Notes under the pieces: model-generated
The model's input: the letters and a program-made list of their open reading frames with translations, nothing else
What the model was told of the DNA's origin: nothing
The model's database searches: none
DNA from: Calothrix sp. FI2-JRJ7
Lineage (GTDB): Bacteria; Cyanobacteriota; Cyanobacteriia; Cyanobacteriales; Nostocaceae
Assembly: GCA_019359675.1 (NCBI GenBank)
Contig: JAHHGX010000069.1
Location: forward strand, 124,001-188,000
DNA: 64,000 bases
Reading direction: 5' to 3'
Shown here: one piece after another, positions 32,930-49,292 of the stretch
Layout: every line of letters begins with the position of its first letter
How positions within the stretch are numbered: the stretch's first letter is position 1
Program-made: the position numbers and the translations under genes

Positions 32930-32941
32930 ATAATTTATCTT

Positions 32942-33005
32942 GCCTGTCCGTAACATCTTATCCGGATACAACTATTTGAGCCATGAAGGGAGTATACGGA
33001 CAGGC
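32942..33005. repeat. 11-base inverted repeat after glf
   Basis: GCCTGTCCGTA (32942-32952) pairs with TACGGACAGGC (32995-33005). The centre contains TATCCGGATA, the same 10-mer palindrome seen at 16171 and 16192. Between genes of the same strand, so perhaps a mobile element or partial terminator. Confidence 0.65.
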
Positions 33006-33066
33006 TCAAATTATACCAATTACGTAAATAATCAGTAGCAATTTTAACATTGTATTGAGAATATAT

Positions 33067-34155
33067 ATGCATAAATTAGCGACAGATGGACTTAGACCGT
33101 TGGAGCTTTCTCCACTGCCAGAAAATCCTCTGGTCTCTATCTTAATTCCTAACTACAACTACGTTAGATATATTGGCGAAGCATTAGATAGCGTATTGCG
33201 TCAAACTTACCCACATTTTGAAGCTATTGTATGTGATGATGGTTCCAAAGATAATTCTTGTGAAGTAATTAATACTTATGTGATTAAAGACCCTCGAATT
33301 AAACTTATTAGTCAAGAAAATGGTGGAGTTGCTAAAGCTTTAAATACGGCTTATCAAGAAAGCCGAGGTGATATAGTTTGTATATTAGATGCAGATGATA
33401 TCTGGCTAGAGAATAAATTAGAAAAAGTTTTACAAGTATTTAAAAACGATTTCAATTCGGGATTTGTAATTCATAATGTAATTCAAATTGATGGACAGGG
33501 GCAAGCTCTAAAATCTAAACCAATGTTGAGAAGTCTAGCTAATGGCTGGATGGGAAACTCTGCTTTAGAAAATGGTGGGTTTGTTTATAATATACCACCA
33601 GCTTCTGCTCTTTGTCTACGTCGAGAGATAGCTGATAATATATTTCCACTAAATCCGGAATTTGTCAGGAATGCAGATAGTTTAATTTTCCGCTGTGCGC
33701 CATTTATTACAGTTATTGGTTCGGTTTCAGAACCATTAAGTAAATTTAGGCTGCATGGAGCTAATACGACAAGTTTTACAAGCTTAACAGCAGATTTTCT
33801 CAAAAAAGAACAGAATACTTTAGAACGTATACATCAAGAGCAAAAAGAGTTTCTCAGAAAAAAATATGGAGAACAAATCGCTCTGAAGCTTACCGATTTA
33901 AAGTATAGCGCTGCTGTTTGTCACGACAGATATTTATTATCTCGCTTCCAATCAACAAATAATCCAGAACGTCGAGAAATTTATCAGCGATTAATGAATC
34001 ACCCAGATTTTGCAAACTGGTCTTTAGCTCAAAAAATACTCTTTAAGTGGGGTGAATATTTGCCTGACAAAATTTTTAAGATGTTCTTTGACTTAATCTA
34101 TGGTCCTAGTAAACTCAAACAATTATTCAGATGGGTAACCAAATGGAGTAAGTAA
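33067..34155 (+). CDS. GT2 family glycosyltransferase
   Basis: GT-A fold. ATG at 33067 (362 residues) preferred to a TTG four codons earlier. Motifs: PLVSILIPNYNYVRYIGEAL, AIVCDDGSKDNS, GDIVCILDADDIWLENKLEK (metal DxD) and a later FVRNADSLIFRCAPF. C-terminal region about 250-362 is helix-rich. Sugar unknown. Confidence 0.9.
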   Translation: MHKLATDGLRPLELSPLPENPLVSILIPNYNYVRYIGEALDSVLRQTYPHFEAIVCDDGSKDNSCEVINTYVIKDPRIKLISQENGGVAKALNTAYQESRGDIVCILDADDIWLENKLEKVLQVFKNDFNSGFVIHNVIQIDGQGQALKSKPMLRSLANGWMGNSALENGGFVYNIPPASALCLRREIADNIFPLNPEFVRNADSLIFRCAPFITVIGSVSEPLSKFRLHGANTTSFTSLTADFLKKEQNTLERIHQEQKEFLRKKYGEQIALKLTDLKYSAAVCHDRYLLSRFQSTNNPERREIYQRLMNHPDFANWSLAQKILFKWGEYLPDKIFKMFFDLIYGPSKLKQLFRWVTKWSK

Positions 34156-34274
34156 TAATCTCATATTTACACTGCTATTTGAATTGTTATGGACAAAACT
34201 AATTAAACACTTTTGTGTCATCTGCAGCAAACACAACCAGCCTTACTTCAATTTTGTAGAGGAGAAAAATTACA

Positions 34275-35447
34275 ATGGCTAGTTCCAGTTTACGTGTACT
34301 CTTTGTAAGCCAAGCTTATGTAGTCGGTGTTAATCAAGGTAAACTAAATGCAATTGCAGAAACTGGCAAAGTAGAAGTTGGTTTACTTGTACCAAGTAAC
34401 TGGAAAGCACTCGAATGGAACCGTCAATTTGTAGTTGAGACACCCTATCCTAAAATTAAAGTTTACACGGCGCCTGTATTATTTCCAGGTCGTGGTGGCG
34501 CCTACGTTTTCAACCCTTTAAGAATTTGGCAAGTTGTAAACGACTTTAAACCCGATATTATCCAGGTTGAACAAGAAGTGTTTTCACTTTGTGCTTTGGA
34601 ATTTGCGGTTTGGAGCCGTTTAACTGGTAAGCCCTTAGCGCTGTTTGGCTGGGAAAATATGGATCGCACTCTACCAACACCACGTCGTTGGGTATGCAAT
34701 TTTGTTATGGATACAGTCAAATTAATGCTTCCCGGTAATTATGACGGAGCAAATTTGATGCGTAAATGGGGTTACACCGGGTTAATGGAAATTATTCCCC
34801 AAATAGGAGTTGATACTCAGTTGTTTACTCCTAAATCGAAACAGACACAAAATAAAGTCTTTAATATCGGCTTTTTGGGACGGTTGGTACCAGAAAAAGG
34901 TGTCGATACTATTTTTGCCGCAGTTCGTCATCTTCAGGATAAAGGCTTGAAATGTCAAATTACAATCTGCGGCACGGGTTATGTGGAACAAGCGCTCCGA
35001 AACGAAGCACAAAAACTGCAAATCGCTGACTCAGTTATTTGGCGTGGTGGAGTCCGACACGACCAGGCGCCTGCTGAGATTAGCAATTTTGATGTTTTAG
35101 TATTACCTTCGCGTCAGGCTCCTGCTTGGAAAGAACAGTTTGGTCACGTACTTATCGAAGCAATGGCAATGGGTGTGCCTGTCATTGGTTCATCATCAGG
35201 TGAAATACCCAATGTGATTGGATGCAGTGATTTAGTGTTTCCAGAAGATGACGCACCTGCACTAGCAGCAATTATAGAACGCATGATGCAGGAACCAAAT
35301 TGGTGGCAATCTGTAGGTTTAGGCGGCATTGCTAGAGTTCAACAGCATTACACACACGAACGAATCGCCCAAAGATCAATCGACCTTTGGGAAAAAGTAC
35401 TTGTTATTCCTAAATTTAATAAAGCTGAGGTCAAGCAATGCGTGTAG
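34275..35447 (+). CDS. GT4 family glycosyltransferase
   Basis: 390 residues, GT-B fold. Strong ribosome site (AGAGGAG). Markers: LRVLFVSQAYVVGVNQGKLN, DIIQVEQEVFSLCALEFAVW, PQIGVDTQLFTPK, donor domain IGFLGRLVPEKGVDTIFAAV, and EQFGHVLIEAMAMGVPVIGS (E-x7-E). Overlaps the next glycosyltransferase gene by 10 bases, implying coupled translation. Confidence 0.92.
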   Translation: MASSSLRVLFVSQAYVVGVNQGKLNAIAETGKVEVGLLVPSNWKALEWNRQFVVETPYPKIKVYTAPVLFPGRGGAYVFNPLRIWQVVNDFKPDIIQVEQEVFSLCALEFAVWSRLTGKPLALFGWENMDRTLPTPRRWVCNFVMDTVKLMLPGNYDGANLMRKWGYTGLMEIIPQIGVDTQLFTPKSKQTQNKVFNIGFLGRLVPEKGVDTIFAAVRHLQDKGLKCQITICGTGYVEQALRNEAQKLQIADSVIWRGGVRHDQAPAEISNFDVLVLPSRQAPAWKEQFGHVLIEAMAMGVPVIGSSSGEIPNVIGCSDLVFPEDDAPALAAIIERMMQEPNWWQSVGLGGIARVQQHYTHERIAQRSIDLWEKVLVIPKFNKAEVKQCV

Positions 35448-36559
35448 TAATCGCTAGAACAATGCAGGAATTCAGTATGAACGTTTATGCTGATGGCATT
35501 ATATCGGGTTTGAGAAGTGCGCGTCCCAACTGGGAAATTATTAATTTGGTGCCTCGTCATTTTGACCGACGTAGTCACTCGTTGAGTCTGCGAGTTCAAA
35601 AATATTACGAACGATTTTGGGCTTTTCCGCGTCTTGTTAAGCAGCAAAAAGCTGACATATTTCACATTATTGACCCAAGCGAAGCGCATATTGTTTATTG
35701 GTTAAACAAAAAATCTCAACCTACTGTTGTTACCTGCCACGATTTAGTTAATTTTTACTATAAGAACAATCTTGAAGGTTCAGTGCAGTTACCATTTGTT
35801 AGCAAAGCAGCTTGGTTACATGCTGTGAAAGGTATGCGTCATGCTAACCATATTGTTTCAGTTTCATCGACTACAGCAAAAGATACAACTGAACTATTAG
35901 ATATCCTACCACAGAAAATTTCTGTCACTCCTAACGCCGTTGACTCTACATTTCAGCAGTTATCAAAATCTGAAATAACGTTACTGCGACAAAAATACAA
36001 TATTCCTGCAAATAAAACTTGCCTGTTAAATGTTGGTTCAAACCACCCACGTAAAAATATTGATAAAATTCTTCAGGCTGTATCTCATTTAGTCGAGAAA
36101 AATGTGCCTATTCACTTTTTAAAATGTGGTTCTGATTTTACAGACGAGCAGAAAAAGTATATTCAGGAATTTGGATTGGCTAATACTATTAGTTATATAG
36201 GGAAACCAGAAAAAGAAAGTTTAGTTGAAATATATAACGCTGCTGACATTCTGATCGCCCCTTCTTTACATGAGGGCTTTGGAATAACTATCTTAGAAGC
36301 TATGGCTTGCGGTACACCAGTCATTTCTTCTAATACATCTGCTCTACCAGAAGTTGCCGGAAATGCAGGAGTGTTAGTTAACCCACAAGACAGTCAAGCA
36401 ATAGCGGATGCTGTATGTCAGATACAAGCGAACCCAAATTATTATCAAGAATTAGTTGAAAAAGGAATTGAAAGAGCAAAATTATTTACTTGGGAGAAGA
36501 CAGGACAGCAGCTCGCTGAGATTTATGAAGATGTATTAAGTAAACAGAATATAAAGTAA
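35438..36559 (+). CDS. GT4 family glycosyltransferase
   Basis: 373 residues. Markers: IFHIIDPSEAHIVYWL, VVTCHDLVNFYY, VSVSSTTAKDTTELL, ISVTPNAVDSTFQQL, LLNVGSNHPRKNIDKILQAV, and SLHEGFGITILEAMACGTPV with the E-x7-E donor-binding pair. Start codon lies inside the preceding gene. Donor and linkage unknown. Confidence 0.93.
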   Translation: MRVVIARTMQEFSMNVYADGIISGLRSARPNWEIINLVPRHFDRRSHSLSLRVQKYYERFWAFPRLVKQQKADIFHIIDPSEAHIVYWLNKKSQPTVVTCHDLVNFYYKNNLEGSVQLPFVSKAAWLHAVKGMRHANHIVSVSSTTAKDTTELLDILPQKISVTPNAVDSTFQQLSKSEITLLRQKYNIPANKTCLLNVGSNHPRKNIDKILQAVSHLVEKNVPIHFLKCGSDFTDEQKKYIQEFGLANTISYIGKPEKESLVEIYNAADILIAPSLHEGFGITILEAMACGTPVISSNTSALPEVAGNAGVLVNPQDSQAIADAVCQIQANPNYYQELVEKGIERAKLFTWEKTGQQLAEIYEDVLSKQNIK

Positions 36560-36627
36560 TCGCGAATGAATTACTTTTATCGCATTCACTATAAGTCAAT
36601 TTTAATTAGTAAATCCTAACATCTATT

Positions 36628-37881
36628 ATGGTCATGAAAATTCTTATTTCAGCCTACTCCTGTGAACCAGGCAGAGGTTCCGAACGTGGTGTTGGTTGGA
36701 ACGTCGCGCGTGAAGCTGCTAAATACCACGAAGTTTGGGTTCTAACGCGACCAGACGAAAGCAAGGAAGCAATTGAAGCTGAACTTGCACGCAACCCAGT
36801 GCCCAATCTACATTTTGTTTATTTTACTATTCCTTTGTTAGGTGGTCTCTGGCGCCTGGGTTCCAACGGTGCCATGCAAATCCATTACTACCTGTGGCAA
36901 ATTCAAGCTTACTTCGTTGCACGGCACCTACATAGCGAAATCGGCTTTGACTTGATGCATCATGTTACGTTTGTCAAATATTCAAACCCTTGTTTTCTAT
37001 CTTTATTGCCTGTACCTCTTGTTTGGGGACCAGTCGGTGGTGGAGAAACAACTCCCAAGCCTTTTTGGCGTGATTTTAGTTTGCGTGCAAAAGTTTATGA
37101 AACCGCGCGCGACTTAGCACGTTTTATAGGAGAGCTAGACCCATTTGTACATGTTACAGCTAAACGCAGCGCTGTAGTTCGAGCCACAACCAAGGATACG
37201 GCGAATCGAATCTATAAAATGGGAGTATCCAAGGTACATATTACTCCAGAGTCAGGTTTAACTGAGGAAGAAATTACTTATCTTACCCAGTATAAAATGC
37301 CTGAAGCTTCCCGTGTCAGATTTATCAGCATGGGTAGATTGCTGCACTGGAAAGGCTTTCATTTAGGTATACGCGCTTTTGCTGCATCGAATATCCCAAA
37401 TGCAGAATTTTGGGTTGTTGGTGATGGACCAGAATTTCAAAGACTCCAAGACTTAGCCAAAAGCTTGGGTATTGCTGAAAAAGTTAAGTTTTGGGGCAGA
37501 CTAACGCGCGAGGAAACTTTAGAAAAACTTGGACAATGTCACGCACTAGTTCATCCTAGTCTACATGATTCCGGTGGATGGGTATGTATCGAAGCAATGG
37601 CAACTGGGCGCCCGGTAATTTGCCTTGATTTAGGAGGACCCGCAGTACAAGTAACTAAAGACACAGGTTTTAAAATTCCGGCAATAAATCCGGAGCAGGC
37701 AATAGATGGTTTGTCTAAAGCTATGGCGACTCTTGCTTTTGACTCGAAATTAAGGCTGCAAATGGGGCTATTGGGACAGAAGTTGGTTAGAGAAACTTAC
37801 AGTTTAGAAGCTCAGGGTAAAAACCTAGCTCAGGTTTATCAAGAAGTTGCATCCTATAAAATACCTACAGGTGTTGTATGA
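36628..37881 (+). CDS. GT4 family glycosyltransferase
   Basis: 417 residues. N-terminus KILISAYSCEPGRGSERGVG is typical of a GT4 subfamily common in cyanobacteria and Bacteroidetes. Other markers: HHVTFVKYSNPCFL, VWGPVGGGETTP, FISMGRLLHWKGFHLGIRAF, and HDSGGWVCIEAMATGRPVIC. Two ATGs are two codons apart (36628, 36634); the first is taken. Overlaps the next gene by four bases (ATGA). Confidence 0.93.
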   Translation: MVMKILISAYSCEPGRGSERGVGWNVAREAAKYHEVWVLTRPDESKEAIEAELARNPVPNLHFVYFTIPLLGGLWRLGSNGAMQIHYYLWQIQAYFVARHLHSEIGFDLMHHVTFVKYSNPCFLSLLPVPLVWGPVGGGETTPKPFWRDFSLRAKVYETARDLARFIGELDPFVHVTAKRSAVVRATTKDTANRIYKMGVSKVHITPESGLTEEEITYLTQYKMPEASRVRFISMGRLLHWKGFHLGIRAFAASNIPNAEFWVVGDGPEFQRLQDLAKSLGIAEKVKFWGRLTREETLEKLGQCHALVHPSLHDSGGWVCIEAMATGRPVICLDLGGPAVQVTKDTGFKIPAINPEQAIDGLSKAMATLAFDSKLRLQMGLLGQKLVRETYSLEAQGKNLAQVYQEVASYKIPTGVV

Positions 37882-38924
37882 AAAACAAACTATTGCTTGT
37901 AACGTTTCCAGTAGACTTGGGCAGTACCACATATGCTACAAGATTAATCAATACATTTGATAATTATGTAGATTTACAGGTTTATTCTTTCAAATCTCAA
38001 ACAAAAGAGCATACTTCTTCTAAATTAGATTATGCTCAAATTTTTATTAAAAGGCTGCTCAACTCACATCATCTTCAGCAAGTAGTTAGAAAAGCTCAAC
38101 GAGAAGGTAGAAAGGTATTATTTCAGGGAGTAACTCCTGCTTTATTTGCCTACCCCGCAATTCCAAAAAATAGTAGCTATATAGTTACTGACTGGACAAG
38201 AAAGCTGTACGAACCAATTTTAAATCAAAAATTTTCTTCTCGGTTCCAAACATTTATTCATAAAACAGTTCTGAACTCACAAAAAACTATACTTTGTTTA
38301 ACTCATGCTGTCCAAGAGCAAATATTAAAGGATTACCAAGTTTCAGCTAGTAAGCTTAAAAAGGCAAAAGTCCCATTTGACTTTGATCTGAAATGGTTTA
38401 CCCCTAGCCCCAAGCGTACAGATGACGAAGTAAGAATTCTTTTTGTAGGTGGCAGACTTTCTTACAAAGGTGGTGATGTTTTAGTTGATTGGTTTAGAAA
38501 AAATAATTATCCCAACTTAAAGCTAACATTAGTAACTAAAGATAAAATTAGCGCTCATCCAAATATCAAAGTGGAAACTGATCTAAACTACGGTGAACAG
38601 GCACATGCGGAAGTATTTAAAAATCACGATATTTTTGTTCTTCCTACAGTCTGTGATGCCTACCCCTCAGTTTTAGGTGAGGCAGCATGTTCTGGACTTG
38701 CACTTCTAACAACCAAACATGCTTTAGGCGCCCCAGAGGTAATACAAAACGGTGTGAATGGTTATATATGTGATGGACGCGAAGACTTATTAAATAAACT
38801 TAACCAATTAGTTCAAGATAAACCTCTGATTGAATCAATGAAGCTTAAAAGCCGAGAAATTATGGAGGAAGTATTTGAGCCAGAATTAGTTCGCAGTGAT
38901 TACTTAAGGATTATTTTTGGATAA
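37878..38924 (+). CDS. GT4-like glycosyltransferase
   Basis: 348 residues. The donor domain shows ILFVGGRLSYKGGDVLVDWF, NHDIFVLPTVCDAYPSVLGE with an acidic residue at the usual site, AACSGLALLTTKHALGAPEV and NGVNGYICDG. The N-terminal half is less typical of GT4. Coupled to the upstream gene by a four-base overlap. A 190-base spacer follows, without a clear gene. Confidence 0.85.
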   Translation: MKNKLLLVTFPVDLGSTTYATRLINTFDNYVDLQVYSFKSQTKEHTSSKLDYAQIFIKRLLNSHHLQQVVRKAQREGRKVLFQGVTPALFAYPAIPKNSSYIVTDWTRKLYEPILNQKFSSRFQTFIHKTVLNSQKTILCLTHAVQEQILKDYQVSASKLKKAKVPFDFDLKWFTPSPKRTDDEVRILFVGGRLSYKGGDVLVDWFRKNNYPNLKLTLVTKDKISAHPNIKVETDLNYGEQAHAEVFKNHDIFVLPTVCDAYPSVLGEAACSGLALLTTKHALGAPEVIQNGVNGYICDGREDLLNKLNQLVQDKPLIESMKLKSREIMEEVFEPELVRSDYLRIIFG

Positions 38925-39115
38925 TTTATCGTTCTTCGGGCTTCGGCTTGAGACAGAAGGAAAGAGTTATTTTACACAAAGCCTCCTGTCTTGCTCAATA
39001 GGGTTTAACAAAACGCCGTCAATAAGCGGCAAAGACATATGGTTGGGGTTTCAATTCCCATTCAATTGACCATAAAAGTCCTCTGCTTTGCTCAGTATTT
39101 GTAAGTTTTAGTAAT

Positions 39116-40273
39116 ATGCATATTTTAATTGCTGCTTTACACCGACCATCTAAACCAACAGGAGTTTGCCGATACGCGGTTAATCTTGCTCAATGTCTTG
39201 CTGATACTGATAAAGTTACGAAAGTTAGCTTAGTAATTGGAGCATGGCAAAAATCATATTTTGAGCAATCATTTAAATTTTCATCAGAAAAAATTAATTT
39301 AATCAGCGTAGATATAAAAAATACTTCTTCATCTAGAAATCTTTGGTTTTTATTTGCATTACCGAAACTAGCTAAACAACTTAATACTGATATTGTGCAT
39401 TTATCATTCCCACTTCCTGTTATTCGTCAACTTTTTGCTTGTCCTGTAGTTGCCACAATTCACGACCTCTACCCATACGAGTTTCCAGAAAATTTTGGTT
39501 ATCCAAACGTTATATTTAATCAAATTTTTCTCAAAATATGTATCAATAACAGCAATGGCTTATCATGCGTGTCTAAAACTACATATCAATCGCTAAAGCA
39601 ATACTTTCATAACATAGATAATAAAAAAATTACTACTGTCATTTACAATGAAGCTGATTTTAGTAATGTCAGCGATAAAAATCCTTTAAATACAACAAAT
39701 TCTCTTATTAATATACCGTTTTTTTTAGCGGTTGCACAACATCGTAAAAATAAAAATTTAGATATTATTATTAAATCATATCACTTATTAAAAGCCAGTA
39801 GTCAAATACATGAATCAACAAAATTAATTCTTGTTGGTAGTCCGGGACCTGAGACTGAAAACCTCAAGCAGCTAATAAGTGCATTATCGCTCGAAGCACA
39901 TGTAGAAATGCTTGCTTCGATTGATGATGAAGAGTTATGCTGGTTGTATAAAAACTGTCAGATGTTGGTTATACCTTCTACAACCGAGGGTTTCTGTTTA
40001 CCTTTAGCTGAAGCCTTATCGGTAGGCGCCAAAGTAGTATGTTCAGATATTCCGATATTTCGAGAAATTGGTAATTCGTCTTGTACGTACTTTCAACTAG
40101 AGGGGGATGGTATCCAAAATTTATCACAAGCTATAATTGACTCATTAGCGCAACCAACTCAAATAGTTGATGCTGATAATCGTTTTTCAAAAGTGCAGCT
40201 ATCTAAGCAATATATAAATTTTTACTCTCAAATTAAGAAAGAAATCTTTTCCCCTCTTGATAAGGGGGGTTAG
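39116..40273 (+). CDS. GT4 family glycosyltransferase
   Basis: 385 residues: MHILIAALHRPSKPTGVCRY, DIVHLSFPLPVI, ATIHDLYPYEFPENFGYPN, SCVSKTTYQSL, FFLAVAQHRKNKNLDIIIKS and STTEGFCLPLAEALSVGAKV. The final residues FSPLDKGG and the stop codon come from a CCCCTCTTGATAAGGGGGG repeat, so the natural end may be altered. Weak ribosome site. Lower GC and more AT-rich codons than the GT4 genes before it. Confidence 0.9.
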   Translation: MHILIAALHRPSKPTGVCRYAVNLAQCLADTDKVTKVSLVIGAWQKSYFEQSFKFSSEKINLISVDIKNTSSSRNLWFLFALPKLAKQLNTDIVHLSFPLPVIRQLFACPVVATIHDLYPYEFPENFGYPNVIFNQIFLKICINNSNGLSCVSKTTYQSLKQYFHNIDNKKITTVIYNEADFSNVSDKNPLNTTNSLINIPFFLAVAQHRKNKNLDIIIKSYHLLKASSQIHESTKLILVGSPGPETENLKQLISALSLEAHVEMLASIDDEELCWLYKNCQMLVIPSTTEGFCLPLAEALSVGAKVVCSDIPIFREIGNSSCTYFQLEGDGIQNLSQAIIDSLAQPTQIVDADNRFSKVQLSKQYINFYSQIKKEIFSPLDKGG

Positions 40274-40287: not shown

Positions 40288-41718
40288 ATGAATCAACAAC
40301 TACATGTAGAAGAGAAGAAAGGTAGTTTAAAAAACTTAACCTTAATTATTGCTTCATTCGCTAGCGTTTTTTATCCTCGGGTTCTAGATACTATTGGTGT
40401 TCCTTCTGCTATTAACTTTGTTCATTTTCTTATTGTACCATTCACATTTGGAGTGGCAATATTTACAACTACGGTTAAAAACAAAAAGCAAATTAATATT
40501 ACATGGGAAATAACTATAGGTTGTCTACTATTTTTTGGCGCAAACCTTGGCAGCGCGCTTTTAAATCGCGCAGGAGTTATTAATGTATTTTTAGAGTTTG
40601 TTCTGCTAACTGAACCTTATATGCTACTTTTGGCAATCATTTGTTTGCCATTATCTGAAGCTCATATTGCCAAGTTAAGAAGTTGGCTTTTAATTTCTGC
40701 GGTGATTAATTTAGTCTTAGCTATTGCTCAGTATTTTCTGCTAATCACTGGGATTCTTCGAGTTACTAGCATGTCATTAGCAGATAATATTCAGGGAGTA
40801 TTTTATTTAACAGGTGCTGGCAATTACGTATCAGTATCGGTATCAATTGCTGTTGCTTTATATTATTTATTTGATGCCAAAAAAGTTTCTATAGGGTTTC
40901 GATTATTTTGGTTATTAGCATCTTTCTACCAGCTACTCGTTTCTGACTCTAAACAAATACTTATAGTATTTGTTCTTGCATGGGGTCTATTAGTACTAAC
41001 AAAATATGATAAAATTGATAAACTTCTATTTTATATTGTTGCTTTTACGCTGTCTTTAACAGCATTTCTTTGGGCAGTTGAAAATGTAGACTTTAAAGGT
41101 TTAGATGCTTTTAAATACTGGTTTGGCCGAACTGAACTGTATGGACCAGATGGTGAAGCAGTTAATGCCAAAATGGCAGGGGCTACTATTATTATTTCAT
41201 ATTTTAAAACTCCTTTGAACTGGTTGTTTGGTCTTGGACCAGGTCACACAGTTGGACGAGTAGGAGGGTGGATACTCAGAGATTATGCACCTTTATTAGC
41301 TCCATTAAAACCCACTATTCATCCAGCAACGCAAGAAATTTGGAATGCATTAAATTCAAATTGGCTGGTATTAGAGTCATCAATGTTTGCTCCTATTTTT
41401 ACCTGGGTTGGTTTGTGGGGAGACTTAGGCTTTTTAGGTGTAGGAGCTTATTGCTTTCTTGCTGCTGTTACTTGGCAGCGTCTTTGTAAAGACGACCTTT
41501 CCAAGCTGTTAATGTTAACGATGTTAGTTTATGGTTTCATTTTTACTCAAGTCGAAGAACCCGGTCAATCGCTAACTGTAGCACTAATGATTGGACTGCA
41601 ATGGCATCAACGACAAAACCGTAGACTCGCGCGTTTTGCTGATTCGGCGCCATCTTCTGATTTTGAGCCTAAAGTAGCGAGTACTCCTTTATACGTTAAG
41701 CCGACCAAGCGACGCTAA
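40288..41718 (+). CDS. polytopic membrane protein, Wzy/O-antigen-ligase-like
   Basis: 476 residues with about ten hydrophobic helices and a large soluble loop near residues 270-365 (FGRTELYGPDGEAVNAKMAG, TIHPATQEIWNALNSNWLVL), the layout of Wzy polymerases and WaaL ligases. Such enzymes join or transfer lipid-linked glycan units on the periplasmic side. Sequence is too divergent to tell polymerase from ligase. Last gene of the plus-strand locus; a hairpin follows and the neighbour is convergent. Confidence 0.75.
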   Translation: MNQQLHVEEKKGSLKNLTLIIASFASVFYPRVLDTIGVPSAINFVHFLIVPFTFGVAIFTTTVKNKKQINITWEITIGCLLFFGANLGSALLNRAGVINVFLEFVLLTEPYMLLLAIICLPLSEAHIAKLRSWLLISAVINLVLAIAQYFLLITGILRVTSMSLADNIQGVFYLTGAGNYVSVSVSIAVALYYLFDAKKVSIGFRLFWLLASFYQLLVSDSKQILIVFVLAWGLLVLTKYDKIDKLLFYIVAFTLSLTAFLWAVENVDFKGLDAFKYWFGRTELYGPDGEAVNAKMAGATIIISYFKTPLNWLFGLGPGHTVGRVGGWILRDYAPLLAPLKPTIHPATQEIWNALNSNWLVLESSMFAPIFTWVGLWGDLGFLGVGAYCFLAAVTWQRLCKDDLSKLLMLTMLVYGFIFTQVEEPGQSLTVALMIGLQWHQRQNRRLARFADSAPSSDFEPKVASTPLYVKPTKRR

Positions 41719-41791: not shown

Positions 41792-42907
41792 TTAGGCTTC
41801 CAAGCTATTACTCCAATTCCATTTATCAGGATGTACCAACCAATCAATAAATGATTGTAAATACATTGCTTTATCTTGCCAGCGCTCTCTAGCTTGAATG
41901 TGGTAAAATGTAGTACCCATGAACTTAGCAGATGCATTTTCTGGTCTAAATAGTTGTGTTCCAACCTCATTAGCTAATGTAGATATTTGTGATTCAGCCT
42001 GAATTTGCTGCAATACGAATTGAGGTAAAACAATTTCCATTAACTCGCTAGCTAAGAATAAGCCAAGAAATAGCATTCTTCGACAACCTAACGAAGAAGC
42101 AAAACTAATCGTTTTATCCCAATCTATATCATGGCGCCGAATTAATTCAGCAATATCACAAATCCAGCCTAAGCGTTCCCAACAATGTCGCGAACCGTGA
42201 ACGCATAAAATTGGCAACCAGTAATCGAGTGGTAAACTATTTACAGTTCTACCTGCAAACGTATATGGTTTAAGGTACTTCCAAAAGTGTTTAGGTTCGA
42301 TGAAGGATGAAAATCTGGGGGTTATTCTCCAGTGAATTTCAATCAAAGCCTTTTTGTCGTAATCAATAAAGTCATAAGTATGCTCGCGTTTAGATTTGAA
42401 ATACGCTATTTCTTGAGCTTCAGTTAATTCTGCTTCGCGTTTGTATCCCAAATCAAGCAATAATTGCTTAACTTTAAGGATATCAGGTAGTTGTACAATA
42501 ATATCTAAATCCCCACCTTGCCGCATCGCTAAATTTCCATACACCGAATTAGCCAGTACAGGACCCTTGTAAGGAACGGCTGTAATACCATTGGCTTCGA
42601 GTGATGCCAAGATTTTGAGTAGTTCTGCGGTTAAAAATAAATGTCGTTGAGCATTTGTTTGGAAAAGACTGCGAAATGTCTCTCGCAGTTCTTGAGGTGC
42701 TGCATCACCCGCAATCGTGTTTAAGCTGGTGTGGACAAGCGGCATTACCTTATGCTTTACTGCCATTTGCACAAATTGCTCCCAGTTAATATCACTTAAG
42801 AGCAAATCTTTGATTCTATATAGAGATTCATCATCGCGAGATGTACGCGCGCTTCTGACGAGTAACTCAAATTCTTTAGAAATATTTTGACCTAGTAGGT
42901 TTGGCAT
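41792..42907 (-). CDS. nucleotidyltransferase of the PF14907 type, lasso cluster tailoring candidate
   Basis: 371 residues. The nucleotidyltransferase signature is near residue 131: VPYKGPVLAN then LAMRQGGDLDIIVQ, giving the GG-x-DxD-type metal site, followed by LLLDLGYKRE and a helical C-terminal half (HDIDWDKTISFASSLGCRRM). In pseudomycoidin-type lasso clusters a protein of this kind works after a kinase and adds hexoses to the phosphorylated peptide end; that is family knowledge, not shown here. Last gene of the minus-strand operon, 113 bases behind the exporter. Confidence 0.8.
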   Translation of the reverse strand: MPNLLGQNISKEFELLVRSARTSRDDESLYRIKDLLLSDINWEQFVQMAVKHKVMPLVHTSLNTIAGDAAPQELRETFRSLFQTNAQRHLFLTAELLKILASLEANGITAVPYKGPVLANSVYGNLAMRQGGDLDIIVQLPDILKVKQLLLDLGYKREAELTEAQEIAYFKSKREHTYDFIDYDKKALIEIHWRITPRFSSFIEPKHFWKYLKPYTFAGRTVNSLPLDYWLPILCVHGSRHCWERLGWICDIAELIRRHDIDWDKTISFASSLGCRRMLFLGLFLASELMEIVLPQFVLQQIQAESQISTLANEVGTQLFRPENASAKFMGTTFYHIQARERWQDKAMYLQSFIDWLVHPDKWNWSNSLEA

Positions 42908-43020
42908 TTTTCTTTACGGGTCGTATATGTATAATTAATTATTAAGTGGGGAGCATCTGCTTAAATTCTGTTATTTTACTTATACGCGCGCATCGCACTC
43001 GGTAGAACTAATAGCGTGTC

Positions 43021-44841
43021 TTAGAGTTGATATTGCTGCGCTTGGGTTTCAAATAAGAATGCATAACTTCCACCCAATTTCATCAGTTGTTCATGTGTTC
43101 CACTTTCTACAATCGAGCCAGCTGACATTACGTAAATTCTATCAGCCATTTTTACTGTTGATAGACGATGGCTAATTAAAATTGCTGCCTGATTTTTGAT
43201 TAACTGACGGAATTTTTCAAATACTTCATACTCAGCTTTTGGGTCCATTGCACTTGTAGGTTCATCGAGGACGATGACTTGAGAGTCACGTAAAAAAGCG
43301 CGCGCTAAGGCGATTTTTTGCCACTGACCAATACTTAATTCTTCGCCCTTGTCAAATAATTTACCTAAAATGGTGTCATAACCTTGGGGTAGTTTTGTAA
43401 TCACATCATCGGCGCCACTTCGACGTGCTGCATTAATAATACTTTCGCGTTGCGCTGGTAAATCAATATTACCCATCCAAATATTATCTTGTGCCGAGAA
43501 ATGATATTTAGCATAATCTTGAAAAATCACGCTAACTTCTCGGCGTAAATCTGCTATTTTAAAGTCACGTAAATCAATTCCATCAATGGTAATGCTACCT
43601 GCTGTCGGGTCATATAATCGACAAAGGAGCTTAATTAATGACGTTTTGCCAGAACCATTTTCACCTACCAGTGCTATCACTTCTCCTGGCTTTACAGTCA
43701 AATTAATATCTTTTAGCGCCACACGAGTAGTAGTAGAGTATTGAAAACTGACATTTTTAAATATAATGCCACCCTGCATTGGTTGGGGAAGAGGTACAGG
43801 ATGTGAAGGTTCAATTAATGTAGGTTTGAGGTCGAGAAATTCATAGAGATTTGCAAGGAATAAATTGTCTTCATATAGGGCTGATACACTAGTCAGCAAG
43901 CTTTTAATGTCATTTTGTCCTCGTTGTAATGCTTGGTAATATAAAACTAAATCACCCAAGCGTAGGACACCTTGAATAGTTTGATAAATAATAAAGGCAA
44001 AAACACCAAACAGAAAAATTGCAGCTACAGCTTGAGCCGCAAAATTTGCGATAGACCTACCAGTATCAATTTTTAAACTTTCTTTATATATTTGTCGTCG
44101 TATACGAAGAAACCATTCACTAAAATAAGAACCTAAATTAAACAGGCGAATTTCTTTAGCAAACTGGTCGGATGTTAACATCCAAGCTAAATACATAGCT
44201 TGCCTTTCTTGAGGAGTTTTTTTACGCTGCCAACGATACATGACACCAGAATATTTTACCTTTACTACCATTGCTGGTAAAGCACTAAGAAACAAAATAC
44301 CAACAATCCCCCAATGTAAAGATAGCAGCAACCCTACCATTCCTACTAAAGAAATACTACTCTGACCTACCTGCGCTAAACGATTTAAAATTTGCGGTGG
44401 TCGGTAAGGAGCTTCTTGTTGCGCGCGCTGTAGTGTATCGTAGTAACGGGGATTCTCGTAATATTCCAGGTCTGCCTCAACTGATTTGGCATTAATAATG
44501 CCCTGCATGTAGTCAGTTACCAGTCGAGAATGGGCAGTATTGACAAGTTCTGTGAGAGAGTTGCAGAAGCTTGACAACAGGGTGACAGCACCAGTTACAG
44601 CAACTAATAATAATACTTGCTCAAAAGCTGCAGCTTTATCAACAGCATTAAGACTAGCAGCGACTGTATCTACAATTATTTTTGCTAAATAAATTGTGAC
44701 TAAGGGTAATACACCTTGAATTACTAGCAAAACTACGCGCGCTATCGTCCATCTAGGACTGCTTTGCCATACTAAGCGCAATGCAGGCACAAAGCGAAAA
44801 GTTTTCTGAATTTTTAGTTTAAATTTTTTGCCTACTTGCAT
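43021..44841 (-). CDS. ABC exporter with fused permease and ATPase (lasso peptide D protein candidate)
   Basis: 606 residues. Five or six hydrophobic helices lie in residues about 33-300, and the ATPase domain has Walker A GENGSGKT (393-400), signature LSIGQ (502-506, Ile for the usual Gly), Walker B VIVLDEPTS (522-530) and switch His in ILISHRLSTVK. No N-terminal peptidase domain, as expected when the leader is cut by a separate B protein. In lasso clusters such a protein exports the peptide and gives self-immunity. Position between kinase and nucleotidyltransferase genes on one strand supports that role. Confidence 0.9.
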   Translation of the reverse strand: MQVGKKFKLKIQKTFRFVPALRLVWQSSPRWTIARVVLLVIQGVLPLVTIYLAKIIVDTVAASLNAVDKAAAFEQVLLLVAVTGAVTLLSSFCNSLTELVNTAHSRLVTDYMQGIINAKSVEADLEYYENPRYYDTLQRAQQEAPYRPPQILNRLAQVGQSSISLVGMVGLLLSLHWGIVGILFLSALPAMVVKVKYSGVMYRWQRKKTPQERQAMYLAWMLTSDQFAKEIRLFNLGSYFSEWFLRIRRQIYKESLKIDTGRSIANFAAQAVAAIFLFGVFAFIIYQTIQGVLRLGDLVLYYQALQRGQNDIKSLLTSVSALYEDNLFLANLYEFLDLKPTLIEPSHPVPLPQPMQGGIIFKNVSFQYSTTTRVALKDINLTVKPGEVIALVGENGSGKTSLIKLLCRLYDPTAGSITIDGIDLRDFKIADLRREVSVIFQDYAKYHFSAQDNIWMGNIDLPAQRESIINAARRSGADDVITKLPQGYDTILGKLFDKGEELSIGQWQKIALARAFLRDSQVIVLDEPTSAMDPKAEYEVFEKFRQLIKNQAAILISHRLSTVKMADRIYVMSAGSIVESGTHEQLMKLGGSYAFLFETQAQQYQL

Positions 44842-44913
44842 CGTTGAAATTTAATTAAAAACATAAATAGAGAAATGAAGTTAAAAAGGGAAATAAAAAT
44901 ACTTCGTTATTAT

Positions 44914-45867
44914 CTAAGTCGCGTATGCCTGTAAGTTAATTTTATTTGCATCAAATGTAGTTTTAATAATTGGCGTCACAGCATCCGTCTTATTATCTTC
45001 TTCATTCATTTTTGCAATATCATCTTCAACTAACTTAACAAGTTTTGGTAAATCTTCTAAAGAAGGCTTGCGAATAAAGCGACAAAATCTCACACTTTTA
45101 ATAAGTTCGCTACAATATTGTAAATGTTCAGTAATAAATTTGTCCTCGGTAATTGTGTTAATAGCACGAGTATGACGCACAAGCTCTATAAAAGCTTCTT
45201 GTTGTTTTACACTAGTAATTTTGTGTTCATCTCCTTTACCTAGTATATAAAGTTGTTGTAGCTGAATCGGTTCTTTTTGAAAACCACTAGAAAGTTTATA
45301 AGCAACTTTATATGAATTTTTAGAAACAGGTAATAAGCTTTTGGTATTTTGTCCTAAAGAAGTTGCAGCATCTTTACAAAGTTTAAATTGAGGATAACTA
45401 GGAAAAACAAAAGCTTTATCTTTTTCAATTTTAATAGGTAATACATCGTCTGTTAAAACATTGTAGCCATGAGTATGAAATGTTGTTACCAAAGTGGACT
45501 TTCCCCAACCAGAACCACCTATAAATGCGACACCTTTATTATTAATGTCAACACAACTAGCATGTAAAACTAAAAATCCTCTTTGTCGCAATAATACACA
45601 AAGCACAGGACCCAAAACTACTATGCGAAGCAGAGCTTCATCAACGCCTGGTAAAGGATTAATTACAATTTCTCGCCCATCACGAATTAAAAATTCGCCT
45701 ACTTCTGGTACTTCTCCGACAAGAAGATTATTTTCTTGTTTAGTTTTAGGAAAACTACCGACTTTACTAAAGCTTATTGTTACATCTGCTTCTGCCTGAC
45801 TTTCTGTTAATTCGGGAAACTCTAATTCAGAAGCAATACATAAGTTAAAAGCGTGATAATATTTCAT
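44914..45867 (-). CDS. HPr-kinase-like protein of the lasso peptide cluster
   Basis: 317 residues. The kinase core has LHASCV (101-106), Walker A GGSGWGKST (117-125), and LTDDVLPI (138-145) with the Asp pair of HprK-like P-loop kinases. Lasso-cluster relatives (such as the paeninodin kinase) phosphorylate the hydroxyl of a C-terminal Ser. A tail of about 40 residues after ELIKSVRFCRFIRKPSLEDL is polar and atypical. The start ATG begins 353 bases after the end of the precursor gene, across a hairpin-rich spacer. The precursor here lacks a C-terminal Ser, so the target is uncertain. Confidence 0.85.
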   Translation of the reverse strand: MKYYHAFNLCIASELEFPELTESQAEADVTISFSKVGSFPKTKQENNLLVGEVPEVGEFLIRDGREIVINPLPGVDEALLRIVVLGPVLCVLLRQRGFLVLHASCVDINNKGVAFIGGSGWGKSTLVTTFHTHGYNVLTDDVLPIKIEKDKAFVFPSYPQFKLCKDAATSLGQNTKSLLPVSKNSYKVAYKLSSGFQKEPIQLQQLYILGKGDEHKITSVKQQEAFIELVRHTRAINTITEDKFITEHLQYCSELIKSVRFCRFIRKPSLEDLPKLVKLVEDDIAKMNEEDNKTDAVTPIIKTTFDANKINLQAYAT

Positions 45868-46219
45868 GTTTATATTAAGTTATTTTTTGAAAACATTAGG
45901 ATTAAAAGATGTCTAATAATCTGCCCTTATTAAACAAAAATATAATATTTTGAATGAAGAAGTTAGATATAAGTGCCGAAGTTGGGCGATTGGTGGGGGA
46001 TTTAATCCGCCACCAATTGTAGAGCATGAATCTACGGTTTGGCTCTTGGACTTGAACCCGTTTGATCAGAAGAAAGAAGACTTCTTCCTTCTTCCAAGAG
46101 GGCGAGCGTTAATTCTCCCCATCTTCAATAGGGGAGAATTAACCCCAAGTTAAAGTAGATTATAGTCTACCCTACAGAAATAAGATTTTTCCTTTTTAGA
46201 GTAAAAATCTATTCTGAGA
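45868..46219 (-). other. hairpin-rich spacer between lasso precursor and kinase genes
   Basis: At least four inverted repeats: ATTGGTGG/CCACCAAT (45989-46017); CTCTTGGA/TCCAAGAG (46043-46100) enclosing GAAGAAAGAAGA/CTTCTTCCTTCTTC; the strong stem at 46109-46142; and GTAGATTATAGTCTAC (46155-46170). They can fold in the transcript just behind the precursor and may reduce read-through into the downstream genes or protect the precursor mRNA. Confidence 0.65.
46109..46142 (-). terminator. strong hairpin after the lasso precursor gene
   Basis: TTAATTCTCCCC pairs perfectly with GGGGAGAATTAA (12 base pairs, 10-base loop). No long T-run follows on the minus strand, so it may be an RNA-stabilising or partially terminating hairpin. 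Confidence 0.6.
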
Positions 46220-46390
46220 TTAGCGTATATTTGAGACATCTACATCTCTTGATCCAAGGTCATTTCCACCGGACACTTGTTGACCGTTTTGGAACGCGAA
46301 ATCTGTTCTTTGAGCGCCACCAACGATTTGGGTAATCTCAGCAGCATTTCCGTGAACAGTGAGTTCGGGTGCAACGTATTGCTTCTTCAT
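46220..46390 (-). CDS. lasso peptide precursor (A peptide)
   Basis: 56 codons from ATG at 46390 to TAA at 46220, with AAGGA about 10 bases upstream. The leader begins MKKQYVAPELTVHGNAAEIT and matches the lasso signature: Tyr5, Pro8, Leu10, Gly14 and the penultimate leader Thr20. With cleavage after Gln21, the core starts at Ile22 (IVGGAQRTD), and Asp30 is core position 9, correct for a nine-residue macrolactam ring. The remaining tail FAFQNGQQVSGGNDLGSRDV then DVSNIR makes a 35-residue core, long for a lasso peptide. Located inside the operon between cyclase and kinase. The cut site and ring are predictions. Confidence 0.85.
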   Translation of the reverse strand: MKKQYVAPELTVHGNAAEITQIVGGAQRTDFAFQNGQQVSGGNDLGSRDVDVSNIR

Positions 46391-46459
46391 GATTGAATTT
46401 CCTTGTTTTTAGTTTGTAATTGAATTAATACAGTTGTCGTTTGTGGTAGTACCCCAGAT

Positions 46460-46535
46460 TTGGACTTACAGTGTAGATTGGTGGTTTTGCAACCACACAA
46501 TTCATCACTTGCCAAGATGTTTGGACTTACGGTGT
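46460..46535. repeat. 16-base direct repeat flanking a hairpin upstream of the precursor
   Basis: TTTGGACTTACAGTGT (46460-46475) recurs as TTTGGACTTACGGTGT (46520-46535), 60 bases apart, one mismatch. The right copy contains the stop codon of the cyclase gene. Between them, GTGGTT-TTGC-AACCAC (46482-46497) forms a short hairpin. Confidence 0.65.
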
Positions 46536-48551
46536 TAATTGCTTGTAGTCAAGCCACAAACTAATAACAACTACCTGCCAAGTTCGCATAATATCGTCAT
46601 TCTTAATTTCCTTTCCTGATATCAGTCGCTGATAACATGTTTGGAGGAAATCTAAATCAATGTATTTTTCTAGATGTTTAACTTGATTGGACATTGCCTC
46701 ATCTAAAAGTAGGCGATCGCGCTTCAAAAGTCCTTCATCGAAATTGTCAGATGCATCGGCTTTACCGCCGCGCCATTGAACTTTTTCAGGTAAAATTCCT
46801 TCTAAGGCACGACGCATTACCATTCGTCCCCATCCTTGGCTAAGTTTTTGCTCGGCAGGTAAGGCTAAACAAAATTCAATTAAGCGCTTATCCATGAAAG
46901 GATGACGAGCTTCTATCGAACAATTTGCCGTACATCGATCTATTTGTTCTAATACAAAAGGCAACACGCCTTGAGTTAGACTATACCAATGTTGTTCTCT
47001 AACAGTCAGAAAATTTTCACTCGGTAAATTCAACTTCTCAATTCGCTCATTTAAACCAATACTTTCTGCAAAGTCATTTTTGACAAGCGGATTTTGAGAA
47101 ACAGAGGATTTTGCAGCTTTCTGGTGTTTGCGTGGCCATTGTCGTATTTGACCTAGAACAGGCTTAATTCCGTGATTGACAATTAACTGCTTTCGAGAAA
47201 TACCAAAATGTTTGTGTATTAGCTGTACTCCCTGGAAAAATTCTATCCAACGGAATTTATGTGCAAAATCTTTTAGGTGCGGCAGTGCATAATTCCGAAA
47301 CACACCTGAAGGTGATACATGAACATGTGGTGCTAACGTTTTGACTTCATTTATGCATGTTTTCCAATCCCCTTGACGCGCTAATTCCGTAATTCTAGGC
47401 GTACCGTGACAAACTGTGGTGTCTCCATCAAAACCATCTAATGAAATCCGCAGTCCCAATTCTTTAGTCGCGCGGTAGTTCATCCAAGGGTACATATGGC
47501 TTGGACCCATGAATGCTTCATCTTCATACCGAAAAATTTCGTTTAGTTTGGATATCGGTCCGAGTTCATCACCGGGGATATAGTGGGGAATCAATCCACC
47601 TTGTTCGATGACTGCATTGATAAATGGGCGTTCATCACATTGTTTAATCTTATCAAAAATAATTGAAATTGTATGTAATTTATTTTGCTTTTCTTCTTCT
47701 TTTTCTTGACGAAGTATATCTCGTGCGACACAGGTGACGGATGAAGAATCTAGACCACCGCTTAACTGGGAAATAATCGGAAAGGCGCTACGCATCCGAC
47801 AACGCACTGCTTCTGTAAAAATTTTCCTAAATTCTTCTGCATAAGCTGTATCTGAATCTAACTTAATTTCACGTTTAGGGTCAAGTGACCAGTAACACCA
47901 ATTTTTAATTCCTGAGCTATCTATTATCATACTGTGCGCTGGCGGAAGTCGCAGAATATCTTGATAACTTGTGATAGTTTTGTCTTCCATCATTACTGTC
48001 AAGAAATCTGCAATTCTCACCTCATTTAATCTGCTTGGTACTTCTTGCAAGCACAGCAAAGCTTTAATTTCAGAACTAAAGGCAAAAAGTTTCCCTGAAT
48101 AATAGTAATAAAAGGGCTTCACACCCATATGGTCACGCGCGCAAAATAATTTCTGCTCTCTTGCATCCCATATTACAAAGGCAAAGTCACCGAGTAAATG
48201 CTGCGGACATTCTTCACCCCATTTCTCATACGCTGCCAATATCAACTGGCTATCCGTAATTTTCTCAGGTGGACAGTTGTGAAACTGTAACTTAGGAATA
48301 AGTTCCTCGCGGTTGTCTATGCGAGAATCAGATGTAATGATTAAATCGTTCCTAAAATTAACATACGGTAACTTTTCAATTAATGATTCTGGTGTTGTCC
48401 AAAGCATTCGATGTCCAAATCCCACCGAACCTTCTACCCAAATGTCGGCGCCATCAGGTCCTCGGTGTGCCAAGGTATCCACCATCTTCACCAAGTTTTC
48501 CCGTTCTACTGAACTGCCATCAAGGCAGTAAATCCCCATAATACCGCTCAT
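46527..48551 (-). CDS. lasso peptide cyclase (C protein, asparagine-synthetase-like)
   Basis: 674 residues. Adenylates the side-chain carboxylate of the ring Asp/Glu and closes the isopeptide bond with the core N-terminus. The N-terminal half resembles a glutaminase domain (GIYCLDGSS, LAHRGPDGAD, ILAAYEKWGEEC) but the second residue is Ser, not the Cys nucleophile of true asparagine synthetases (MSGI for MCGI), so glutamine hydrolysis is not expected. The synthetase half has the ATP motif SQLSGGLDSSS (262-272), DGFDGDTT and IEARHPFMDKRLIEFCLALP. Its start overlaps the B2 stop by four bases. The second HIP1 octamer of the window is at 46713-46720. Confidence 0.93.
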   Translation of the reverse strand: MSGIMGIYCLDGSSVERENLVKMVDTLAHRGPDGADIWVEGSVGFGHRMLWTTPESLIEKLPYVNFRNDLIITSDSRIDNREELIPKLQFHNCPPEKITDSQLILAAYEKWGEECPQHLLGDFAFVIWDAREQKLFCARDHMGVKPFYYYYSGKLFAFSSEIKALLCLQEVPSRLNEVRIADFLTVMMEDKTITSYQDILRLPPAHSMIIDSSGIKNWCYWSLDPKREIKLDSDTAYAEEFRKIFTEAVRCRMRSAFPIISQLSGGLDSSSVTCVARDILRQEKEEEKQNKLHTISIIFDKIKQCDERPFINAVIEQGGLIPHYIPGDELGPISKLNEIFRYEDEAFMGPSHMYPWMNYRATKELGLRISLDGFDGDTTVCHGTPRITELARQGDWKTCINEVKTLAPHVHVSPSGVFRNYALPHLKDFAHKFRWIEFFQGVQLIHKHFGISRKQLIVNHGIKPVLGQIRQWPRKHQKAAKSSVSQNPLVKNDFAESIGLNERIEKLNLPSENFLTVREQHWYSLTQGVLPFVLEQIDRCTANCSIEARHPFMDKRLIEFCLALPAEQKLSQGWGRMVMRRALEGILPEKVQWRGGKADASDNFDEGLLKRDRLLLDEAMSNQVKHLEKYIDLDFLQTCYQRLISGKEIKNDDIMRTWQVVVISLWLDYKQLTP

Positions 48552-48994
48552 ATTTTGACTCCTTCCAGAGATGGTAAAGGAACAAAGCGTGGAAGGTCTT
48601 GAAGATACCCAATTACCACCTGTCCTTGATATTCAATCCAAGCATGTGCTTCAAAATTTCCAGTTTCACTTTTAGCGACACCAATACGGAGTTCGGGTTT
48701 ATAGCCGCACCAATTCATGAGTATTTGGGTTGTCAAAGCGCGTGCAAGACATTTGGCGCCACCTGGTGTGTAACGGGTAACAACGTTTACTGCCCAAATA
48801 ATCTGACCGAGAGAAACTTTGTTTGCAGCTATGTTGTGTAAGAACCCTTCACTAATATTTGTTATTAGCTTAAACAAGTTACAAAACGGTAGCAACAATA
48901 AACCTAATCGAACACCTGTTAATAATATTAATGCTGCTGACAGCAAAACGCGCGCTCGGTTGCTTATCTTAAAAAAATTACGCAGTCGTTTCAT
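48548..48994 (-). CDS. lasso peptide leader peptidase (B2, transglutaminase-like)
   Basis: 148 residues. Cuts the leader from the precursor. Family pattern: an N-terminal hydrophobic segment (VLLSAALILLTGVRLGLLLL), then Cys82 in GGAKCLARALTTQ, and His117 in EAHAWIEYQG, the catalytic Cys and His. The Asp of the usual triad is not clear; Asp133 in YLQDLPRF is a candidate. Overlaps both neighbours (17 bases with B1, 4 with the cyclase), the tight packing typical of lasso B1-B2-C genes. Confidence 0.93.
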   Translation of the reverse strand: MKRLRNFFKISNRARVLLSAALILLTGVRLGLLLLPFCNLFKLITNISEGFLHNIAANKVSLGQIIWAVNVVTRYTPGGAKCLARALTTQILMNWCGYKPELRIGVAKSETGNFEAHAWIEYQGQVVIGYLQDLPRFVPLPSLEGVKI

Positions 48995-49292
48995 TATTAA
49001 TCACAATCAGTTCCGCTACTAAAAGGTTTTCGAGTAGTTCTATTACGTCGCTTTCACACTGTTCGGGTTCAACGTCGTATTCTTCCAAAAGTTTCTGTTT
49101 AATTTCTTCTATTGTTCTAGGTTCTTGAATCAGCTTCCAAATACTGGCGCCTACTTCATTTAACCCGTGGTAAACTCCAGACTTAAGGTTTAAAATTACC
49201 GCTTCCCCGCCAAGGTCAGAAGAAATTTGCTGGCTTGACGCAATTATAGTTGAAGCAAATAACGTTTTTTTTTCTAATTCTTTTAAATTCAT
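48978..49292 (-). CDS. lasso peptide leader-recognition protein (B1, PqqD-like RRE)
   Basis: 104 residues. PqqD-fold recognition element that binds the precursor leader and presents it to B2. Pattern: GGEAVILNLKSGVYHGLNEV, GASIWKLIQEPRTIEEIKQK and ESDVIELLENLLVAELIVI. It is the first gene of the minus-strand operon, so the promoter of the whole cluster should lie within 49293-49500. Confidence 0.93.
   Translation of the reverse strand: MNLKELEKKTLFASTIIASSQQISSDLGGEAVILNLKSGVYHGLNEVGASIWKLIQEPRTIEEIKQKLLEEYDVEPEQCESDVIELLENLLVAELIVINNETTA

Follow-up and report, generated by a model that had tools for sequence, protein, structure and literature searches.

What does a cyanobacterium make with a lasso peptide cluster that encodes both a kinase and a nucleotidyltransferase, and why does this cluster abut a polysaccharide locus? 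The question is raised by a 64,000-nucleotide stretch of Calothrix sp. FI2-JRJ7 (contig JAHHGX010000069.1, positions 124,001 to 188,000), hereafter called the window, whose own numbering is used for all coordinates. Seven minus-strand open reading frames (ORFs) lie in one direction at 41792-49292, in the order B1-B2-C-A-K-D-N. They correspond to a putative leader binder, a leader peptidase, a cyclase, a precursor, an HprK-like kinase, an ABC exporter and a nucleotidyltransferase-like protein. All seven had been proposed by a first-pass annotation of this DNA and were recovered exactly where it had placed them. The host genome holds three PsaA/PsaB matches and is therefore cyanobacterial. The analysis reported here indicates that the cluster is a real, conserved cyanobacterial lasso cluster and that its polysaccharide neighbour is not incidental to it. 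The chances are about even that it directs the synthesis of a long (35-residue) lasso peptide, whose internal conserved serine would be phosphorylated and would then receive a sugar or sugar phosphate, this tailoring being tied to the neighbouring exopolysaccharide (EPS) pathway.

A Conserved Cyanobacterial Lasso Cluster

The cyclase C (46527..48551, minus strand) scores 1041 bits with the lasso model NF033535 (cut-off 525) and 279 bits with the asparagine synthetase model TIGR01536. Its N-terminus, MSGIMGIY, gives an MSG start without the Cys2 glutaminase nucleophile; Cys2 was likewise found in none of the 92 cyclases, among 116, that display the start pattern. An asparagine synthetase B was thus rejected, and the grouping with primary asparagine synthetases, which the first-pass annotation had named as fatal to its proposal, does not occur. 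The PqqD-like protein B1 (48978..49292, minus strand), a RiPP recognition element (RRE), reaches 77 bits with PF05402 and 84 bits with NF033536 (cut-off 80). The peptidase B2 (48548..48994, minus strand) reaches 111 bits with NF033537 (cut-off 33) and has C82 (in CLARA) and H116 (in AHAW). The 56-residue precursor A (46220..46390, minus strand) matches NF033528, lasso_cyano, with 62 bits (cut-off 33). The overlaps noted earlier are confirmed: B1 shares 17 bases with B2 (48978-48994), and B2 shares 4 with C (48548-48551). The exporter D (43021..44841, minus strand; PF00005, 118 bits) is an MsbA-like ABC protein that scores under the specific family cut-offs in profile searches.

Of 388 genomes sampled from the class, 46 hold the precursor family, as do 6 of 7 from the genus and 90 of 217 from the family. 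Among 91 cyclase-anchored clusters with full flanks, B1 is encoded on the same strand in 84, B2 in 81, K in 89 and D in 81. A strict-leader precursor is found in 84 of them and N, on either strand, in 58. The loci were found via NF033528 or NF033537, so that this sample is biased to those models. The two clusters that lack K by this rule (L057 and L089) carry it upstream of C instead. Conservation of the precursor next to the B and C genes, which had been predicted, is thus borne out. The precursor model gives one match in its own genome and none in 14 control genomes; no match was obtained by tblastn of the precursor against plasmids or by a single-protein scan of the genome contigs. In one locus, L045 (5373-5830), B2 lies in two frames with two TAA stops inside.

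Precursor, Core and Ring

The precursor reads MKKQYVAPELTVHGNAAEITQ / IVGGAQRTDFAFQNGQQVSGGNDLGSRDVDVSNIR. Its leader (residues 1-21; 46328..46390, minus strand) follows the pattern YxxPxLxxxGxxxxxTx with Thr(-2), so that the B1 RRE is accompanied by the YxxPxL leader motif of lasso precursors. Tyr5, Pro8 and Leu10 match the leader positions Tyr(-17), Pro(-14) and Leu(-12) as numbered in PMC10368454, and therefore the core should start at Ile22 and Asp30 should be core residue 9. The predicted core thus comprises 35 residues (46223..46327, minus strand) with a ring closed on Asp9 (codon 46301-46303), an acid at one of the positions 7-9 expected of a lasso core. A start at Gly24, prompted by PMC10368454, would leave a 7-residue ring and Ile(-2); it was discarded because leader spacing and relatives give Thr(-2) and an acid at 9.

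The relatives were compared as 117 non-redundant cores (<60% alike), drawn from 175 precursors at 118 loci, a set in which a few members are not lasso cores: some are kinase-only peptides, and L185, at least, is a chance ORF. An acid stands at core position 9 in 84 of the 117, while 25 have no acid at positions 7-9. A second precursor type, paeninodin-like, with a shorter core ending in Ser (..DVPFGT...DITS), was observed in L129, from the genus of the window, and in L057, L089 and L182. Long lasso tails exist elsewhere, for example in pandonodin.

An Internal Serine Motif

The first-pass annotation had expected phosphate on the end of the peptide. This part is not supported: the precursor ends in Arg, so that C-terminal phosphorylation as in paeninodin was rejected for this peptide, and the hydroxyl residue that is conserved lies internally, as the Ser of a G-S-x-D motif. 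In the window this motif is G-S-R-D (46244..46255, minus strand), and core Ser26 (codon 46250-46252) is the candidate phosphosite. The motif lies beyond NF033528, which covers precursor residues 1-35 only.

The pattern [GD]S-x-[DN] is present in the tail of 62 of the 84 acid-9 cores (shuffle mean 8.3, maximum 18 in 2000 shuffles) versus 5 of the 33 cores without an acid at 9 (Fisher 1.2e-8). In its strict form, GS-x-[DN], it is found in 63 of the 117 cores (mean 6.8, maximum 17 in 1000 shuffles). The motif Ser has a median core position of 27 and stands a median of 13 residues ahead of the C-terminus, the distance from motif to C-terminus ranging from 5 to 34 residues. Only 3 of the 62 motif-bearing acid-9 cores have a C-terminal Ser. 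Over the whole core set, C-terminal Ser is not enriched over shuffles: 20 cores have one within the last two residues (22.4 shuffled) and 18 at the very end (11.7 shuffled, maximum 20). In contrast, Ser ends all 11 rhizobial precursors accompanied by K and N (10 Mesorhizobium records and one from another bacterium), as well as the precursor of Paenibacillus cellulosilyticus. The lasso kinases characterised in Bacillota and Proteobacteria modify a C-terminal Ser (PMC8498205, PMC9266682), and BsfK modifies Ser3 (PMC10368454); core position 3 is Gly in the window. From the motif and its conservation, Ser26 appears to be the likeliest phosphosite of the core.

In a phylogeny of 110 kinases, 11 changes account for the G-S-x-D label, versus 32.3 when it is shuffled, and 68 of the 71 kinases from clusters with the motif fall inside one block of 79 (support 93, under the starred level). 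This clustering is weak support for a tie between kinase and motif, because anything co-inherited would cluster in the same way. Kinase-less cyanobacterial controls are scarce: among 19 named records, only two gave no K, namely L245, over 17.3 kb, and L252, which lies at a contig end. L245, from Aphanothece sp. CMT-3BRIN-NPC111, encodes a cyclase and N with no kinase found in its 17.3 kb, and is a possible kinase-less cyanobacterial lasso case; its precursor does not contain the strict form of the motif.

HprK-like kinases were also observed beside a lasso-leader peptide (..WT.P.LEIHGAIEELTQ..) in L053, L060, L061, L065, L074, L077 and L078, all from one genus of family f40, and in L082. B1, B2 and C are absent from these fetched stretches and the cores have no acid at 7-9. 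These loci perhaps encode kinase-only phosphopeptides, similar in idea to the linear polyphosphorylated peptides (LPPs).

The Kinase and the Nucleotidyltransferase

The proposal of a cyanobacterial lasso cluster with kinase and nucleotidyltransferase holds, although on two kinds of evidence: A, B1, B2, C and N exceed their model cut-offs, whereas K is recognised by its fold and residues. The profile searches that had been suggested succeeded for B1, B2, C and PF14907 and fell short for K (44914..45867, minus strand), which matches HprK profiles weakly and under their cut-offs (PF07475, 25.5 bits with a cut-off of 33.3; TIGR04352, 33.8 bits with a cut-off of 200). Nevertheless, K carries the His-Lys-Asp-Asp set of HprK-like kinases (H102, K123, D140, D141) with a P-loop, GGSGWGKS, at 117-124. 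In 60 relatives, H102, K123 and D141 are invariant and D140 is kept in at least 90%. The predicted model (predicted local distance difference test, pLDDT, 92.7) has an HprK/PEPCK fold, its matches being phosphoenolpyruvate carboxykinases (best E 4.9e-8) and HprK 3tqf (E 5.7e-7).

N (41792..42907, minus strand) scores 211 bits with PF14907 (cut-off 31.2). K114-G115, R129, D133-x-D135, H192 and D251 are invariant in 49 relatives. The predicted model (pLDDT 91.8) has a nucleotidyltransferase-like fold; in Foldseek no match reached E 0.001 or better, and the resemblances to LnuA, ANT(2'')-Ia and the FKRP phosphotransferase lie at E 0.004 to 0.03. FKRP uses CDP-ribitol, and the LicD/FKRP family acts as phosphotransferases. 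N was compared with the N proteins of Paenibacillus cellulosilyticus (29% identity) and Halopiger (35% identity). The proposed transfer of sugar by N is modelled on pseudomycoidin, where N adds one or two hexoses onto the phosphate (PMC9266682, PMC8498205).

Two plasmids carry related genes in other settings. In Crinalium epipsammum PCC 9333 (L208, 1-4296), a PqqD protein, a nucleotidyltransferase and an HPr kinase are encoded consecutively; an FkbM methyltransferase and a glycosyltransferase come next, and no lasso cyclase is annotated. The archaeon Halopiger xanaduensis carries, on plasmid pHALXA01 (L204, 3875-8980), a lasso cluster comprising B1, B2, C, precursor and N, together with a kinase fragment keeping the HAS/P-loop/DD residues.

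Linkage of N to the Polysaccharide Locus

The polysaccharide locus ends with P (40288..41718, plus strand), which encodes a multi-pass membrane protein, is present in a single copy in the genome and lies tail to tail with N. No relative of P was found in Pfam, NCBIfam or PDB, and calling it a polymerase is guesswork based on its position and membrane stretches. The rest of the locus (16741..40273, plus strand) encodes an ABC-2/Wzt exporter, glycosyltransferases, a GDP-mannose dehydratase-like protein and a UDP-galactopyranose mutase (31799-32929).

A relative of P is present in 31 of 140 fetched loci, every time with N. The two genes are convergent in 31 of 32 loci, the window included, with a median gap of 376 bases. 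The remaining locus, L068, has them on the same strand and 3 bases apart, N standing behind P and opposite to D, K and C. Many genes of the polysaccharide locus recur next to the lasso clusters of relatives: in 20 extended flanks, the glycosyltransferase at 36628 recurs in 17 and the UDP-galactopyranose mutase at 31799 in 9. A polysaccharide neighbour accompanies the cluster in named strains such as Fischerella thermalis PCC 7521, Calothrix parasitica NIES-267 and Scytonema tolypothrichoides VB-61278. Furthermore, a WecG/TagA-type glycosyltransferase gene lies upstream of B1 (50202-50999) and is conserved in three relatives from the same genus (L124, L125 and L126).

The linkage was counted over 138 N places (two short second fragments omitted), 85 P places and at least 106 precursor places (84 of 90 genomes), genomes within one genus being non-independent. 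In the P-holding genomes among the 217 of the family, 37 of the 44 lasso-linked N genes, from 14 genera, lie within 12 kb of P among the matches listed; two others are at 12.5 and 13.9 kb and five on other contigs. By comparison, 17 N genes in P-holding genomes are not close to a listed precursor, and 2 of these are near P among the matches listed. The neighbourhood, which the first-pass annotation had noted as a possible source of activated sugars, is a firmer tie than it could know. The same is seen from the precursors: among the matches listed, 44 of the 49 precursor places with N near are within 25 kb of P, versus 2 of the 13 without (p 5.5e-7 by place, Fisher 0.025 by genus). In addition, none of the four lasso-less stretches around P holds N.

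This linkage could reflect descent or function. On a tree of 97 cyclases, both N and adjacency to P require 15 changes. Among 12 independent pairs differing in N, adjacency differs in the same way in 6.0 and in the opposite way in 0.2 (median p 0.031, range 0.008-0.375); limited to P-holding genomes, nine pairs give 6.4 and 0.0 (median p 0.031). In these tests, the P labels outside the fetched stretches and the list of P-less genomes were set by hand, and 14 of the 97 clusters were left unlabelled. The link also exists outside the family of the window, in G162, G243, G350 and G210 (f27) and in G214 (f38), and the adjacency recurs in families f1, f27 and f38 on separate branches of the cyclase tree. 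The linkage between N and the polysaccharide locus is real, recurrent and tied to N, yet not universal, and is consistent with a functional relation.

Proposed Biosynthesis and Rival Explanations

The sequence itself shows the gene set, K and N with their catalytic residues intact, an acid for the ring, a Ser motif that is conserved and the linkage of N to the polysaccharide locus; the pathway that follows is inferred from these, in every chemical step as well as in the order, site, sugar and place of action. B1 would bind the leader via YxxPxL and K would phosphorylate the precursor at Ser26, within its G-S-x-D tail motif. B2 would cleave after Thr20-Gln21, and C would link the Ile1 amine to the Asp9 side chain, giving a 9-residue ring. 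N could then act on the phosphoserine by transferring a hexose, a sugar phosphate or a nucleotide, for which the polysaccharide pathway would supply the donor out of its sugar pools, and D would export the product, perhaps into the sheath. The lasso so predicted would have a monoisotopic mass of 3658.78 Da, rising to 3738.75 with phosphate and to 3900.80 and 4062.86 with one and two hexoses. A bolder version, which is a long shot, makes phospho-Ser26 a handle by which N would join the lasso through a phosphodiester to the glycan of the adjacent locus, the exported lasso being presented on the exopolysaccharide sheath or retained within it.

Several points weigh against this pathway. Phosphorylation of an internal tail Ser would be new among characterised lasso kinases; Ser19, Ser32 and Thr8 of the core are open alternatives, and the G-S-x-D motif could serve another purpose. 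In 33 of the 91 full-flank clusters N is missing, K being retained and in most cases the motif as well. In 31 of the 32 loci with both genes, P and N are convergent and so do not share a transcript. In a hand count, P and a lasso match lie within 12 kb in only 6 of the 29 class-sample genomes that hold both, the window's included; in the others they are mostly on different draft contigs and in some distant on one contig. Synteny kept by inheritance could explain the linkage; the support from the sign test is modest, and the reverse pairs test gives 5.2 pairs in the same way versus 0.5 in the opposite one (median p 0.125). Taken together, the absences of N, the scattered class sample and the synteny would suit an ordinary phosphorylated lasso cluster: the precursor would be the substrate of K, N would be dispensable or inactive, and common descent alone would have kept the polysaccharide locus nearby as an old neighbour. 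EPS loci of the same kind without lasso genes in all four lasso-less stretches examined, and the deletion of lppN, a related N gene, which left the product unchanged in a heterologous host (PMC13381572), point the same way. This explanation is rather doubtful, since adjacency tracks N and not the lasso genes and recurs on separate branches of the cyclase tree.

N might instead be a LicD/FKRP-like phosphotransferase for the polysaccharide, the peptide not being its substrate. Its place at the end of the polysaccharide locus, its arrangement behind P in L068 and the presence of FKRP among the fold matches of its predicted model would fit such a role. Nevertheless, PF14907 genes away from lasso clusters seldom adjoin P, the lasso-less polysaccharide stretches have no N, and PsmN works with the lasso kinase of pseudomycoidin (PMC9266682), which makes this role improbable. 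As for G-S-x-D, it could be a threading plug or a trimming or export signal and no phosphosite, K modifying another residue; the variable distance of the motif from the C-terminus, unlike the known C-terminal Ser, could be understood in this way. However, the Ser is kept although the length and sequence of its flank vary, and where the kinases are divergent, shorter cores with 8-residue rings often have Ser as their last residue instead, as though each precursor had to be given one. A plug or signal is thus on the unlikely side, and phosphorylation of Ser26 followed by transfer of a sugar or sugar phosphate remains the preferred pathway.

Relation to Known Systems

The window precursor and cyclase pass both NCBIfam cyanobacterial lasso families, NF033528 and NF033535, whereas the precursor model reaches neither the tail motif nor the kinase nor the polysaccharide link. 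Pseudomycoidin (psm) of Bacillus pseudomycoides is likewise the product of a lasso cluster with K and N (PMC9266682, PMC8498205). There the C-terminal Ser is modified, whereas the window, which shares the kinase and N of the paeninodin/pseudomycoidin type, has a C-terminal Arg and an internal conserved Ser. Paeninodin-type and LPP clusters of Bacilli also combine K and N, often within capsular polysaccharide loci (PMC13381572); they belong to another phylum and another locus, and their precursors end in Ser (lasso) or come without a cyclase (LPP). The LPP class, defined by the lack of a macrolactam cyclase, does not accommodate the window, which has C. BsfA/BsfK of Bradymonas sediminis also has a kinase that targets a non-C-terminal Ser, with an N gene present (PMC10368454), but the site is core Ser3 and the ring acid is at 8, whereas the window has Gly3 and an acid at 9.

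Nostocales lasso precursors have been described (PMC9332814). Cyanocohniella sp. LLY has a precursor, cyclase, B1 and B2 with a predicted 36-residue core, and the consulted part of its description names no kinase, nucleotidyltransferase, Ser motif or polysaccharide link (PMC9332814). Cyanobacterial lasso peptides have been credited to Tietz et al. 2017 (PMC8600333), and lasso clusters of rumen Firmicutes include HprK, nucleotidyltransferase and EpsH-type genes (PMC7533575). A search of the open literature, with subscription papers outside its scope, retrieved nothing about kinases of cyanobacterial lasso clusters, about an internal Ser motif or about a polysaccharide link, and the phrase 'cyanobacterial lasso peptide' had no match in the papers it covered.

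Biological Meaning

Linkage of kinase and nucleotidyltransferase clusters to capsule loci was known already in Bacilli, where the role of phosphorylated or phosphoglycosylated lasso peptides and the reason for their setting in polysaccharide loci are stated to be unknown (PMC13381572); the same pairing is found here in another phylum. N is the gene that tracks the polysaccharide locus, and with a concrete internal Ser as candidate site, the substrate of N and the biological role both become directly testable. If the lasso were indeed linked to the glycan, Cyanobacteria and Bacilli would both have reached glycan-bound lasso peptides with the same kinase-nucleotidyltransferase pair. The linkage hints that the peptide works together with the sugar coat of the cell.

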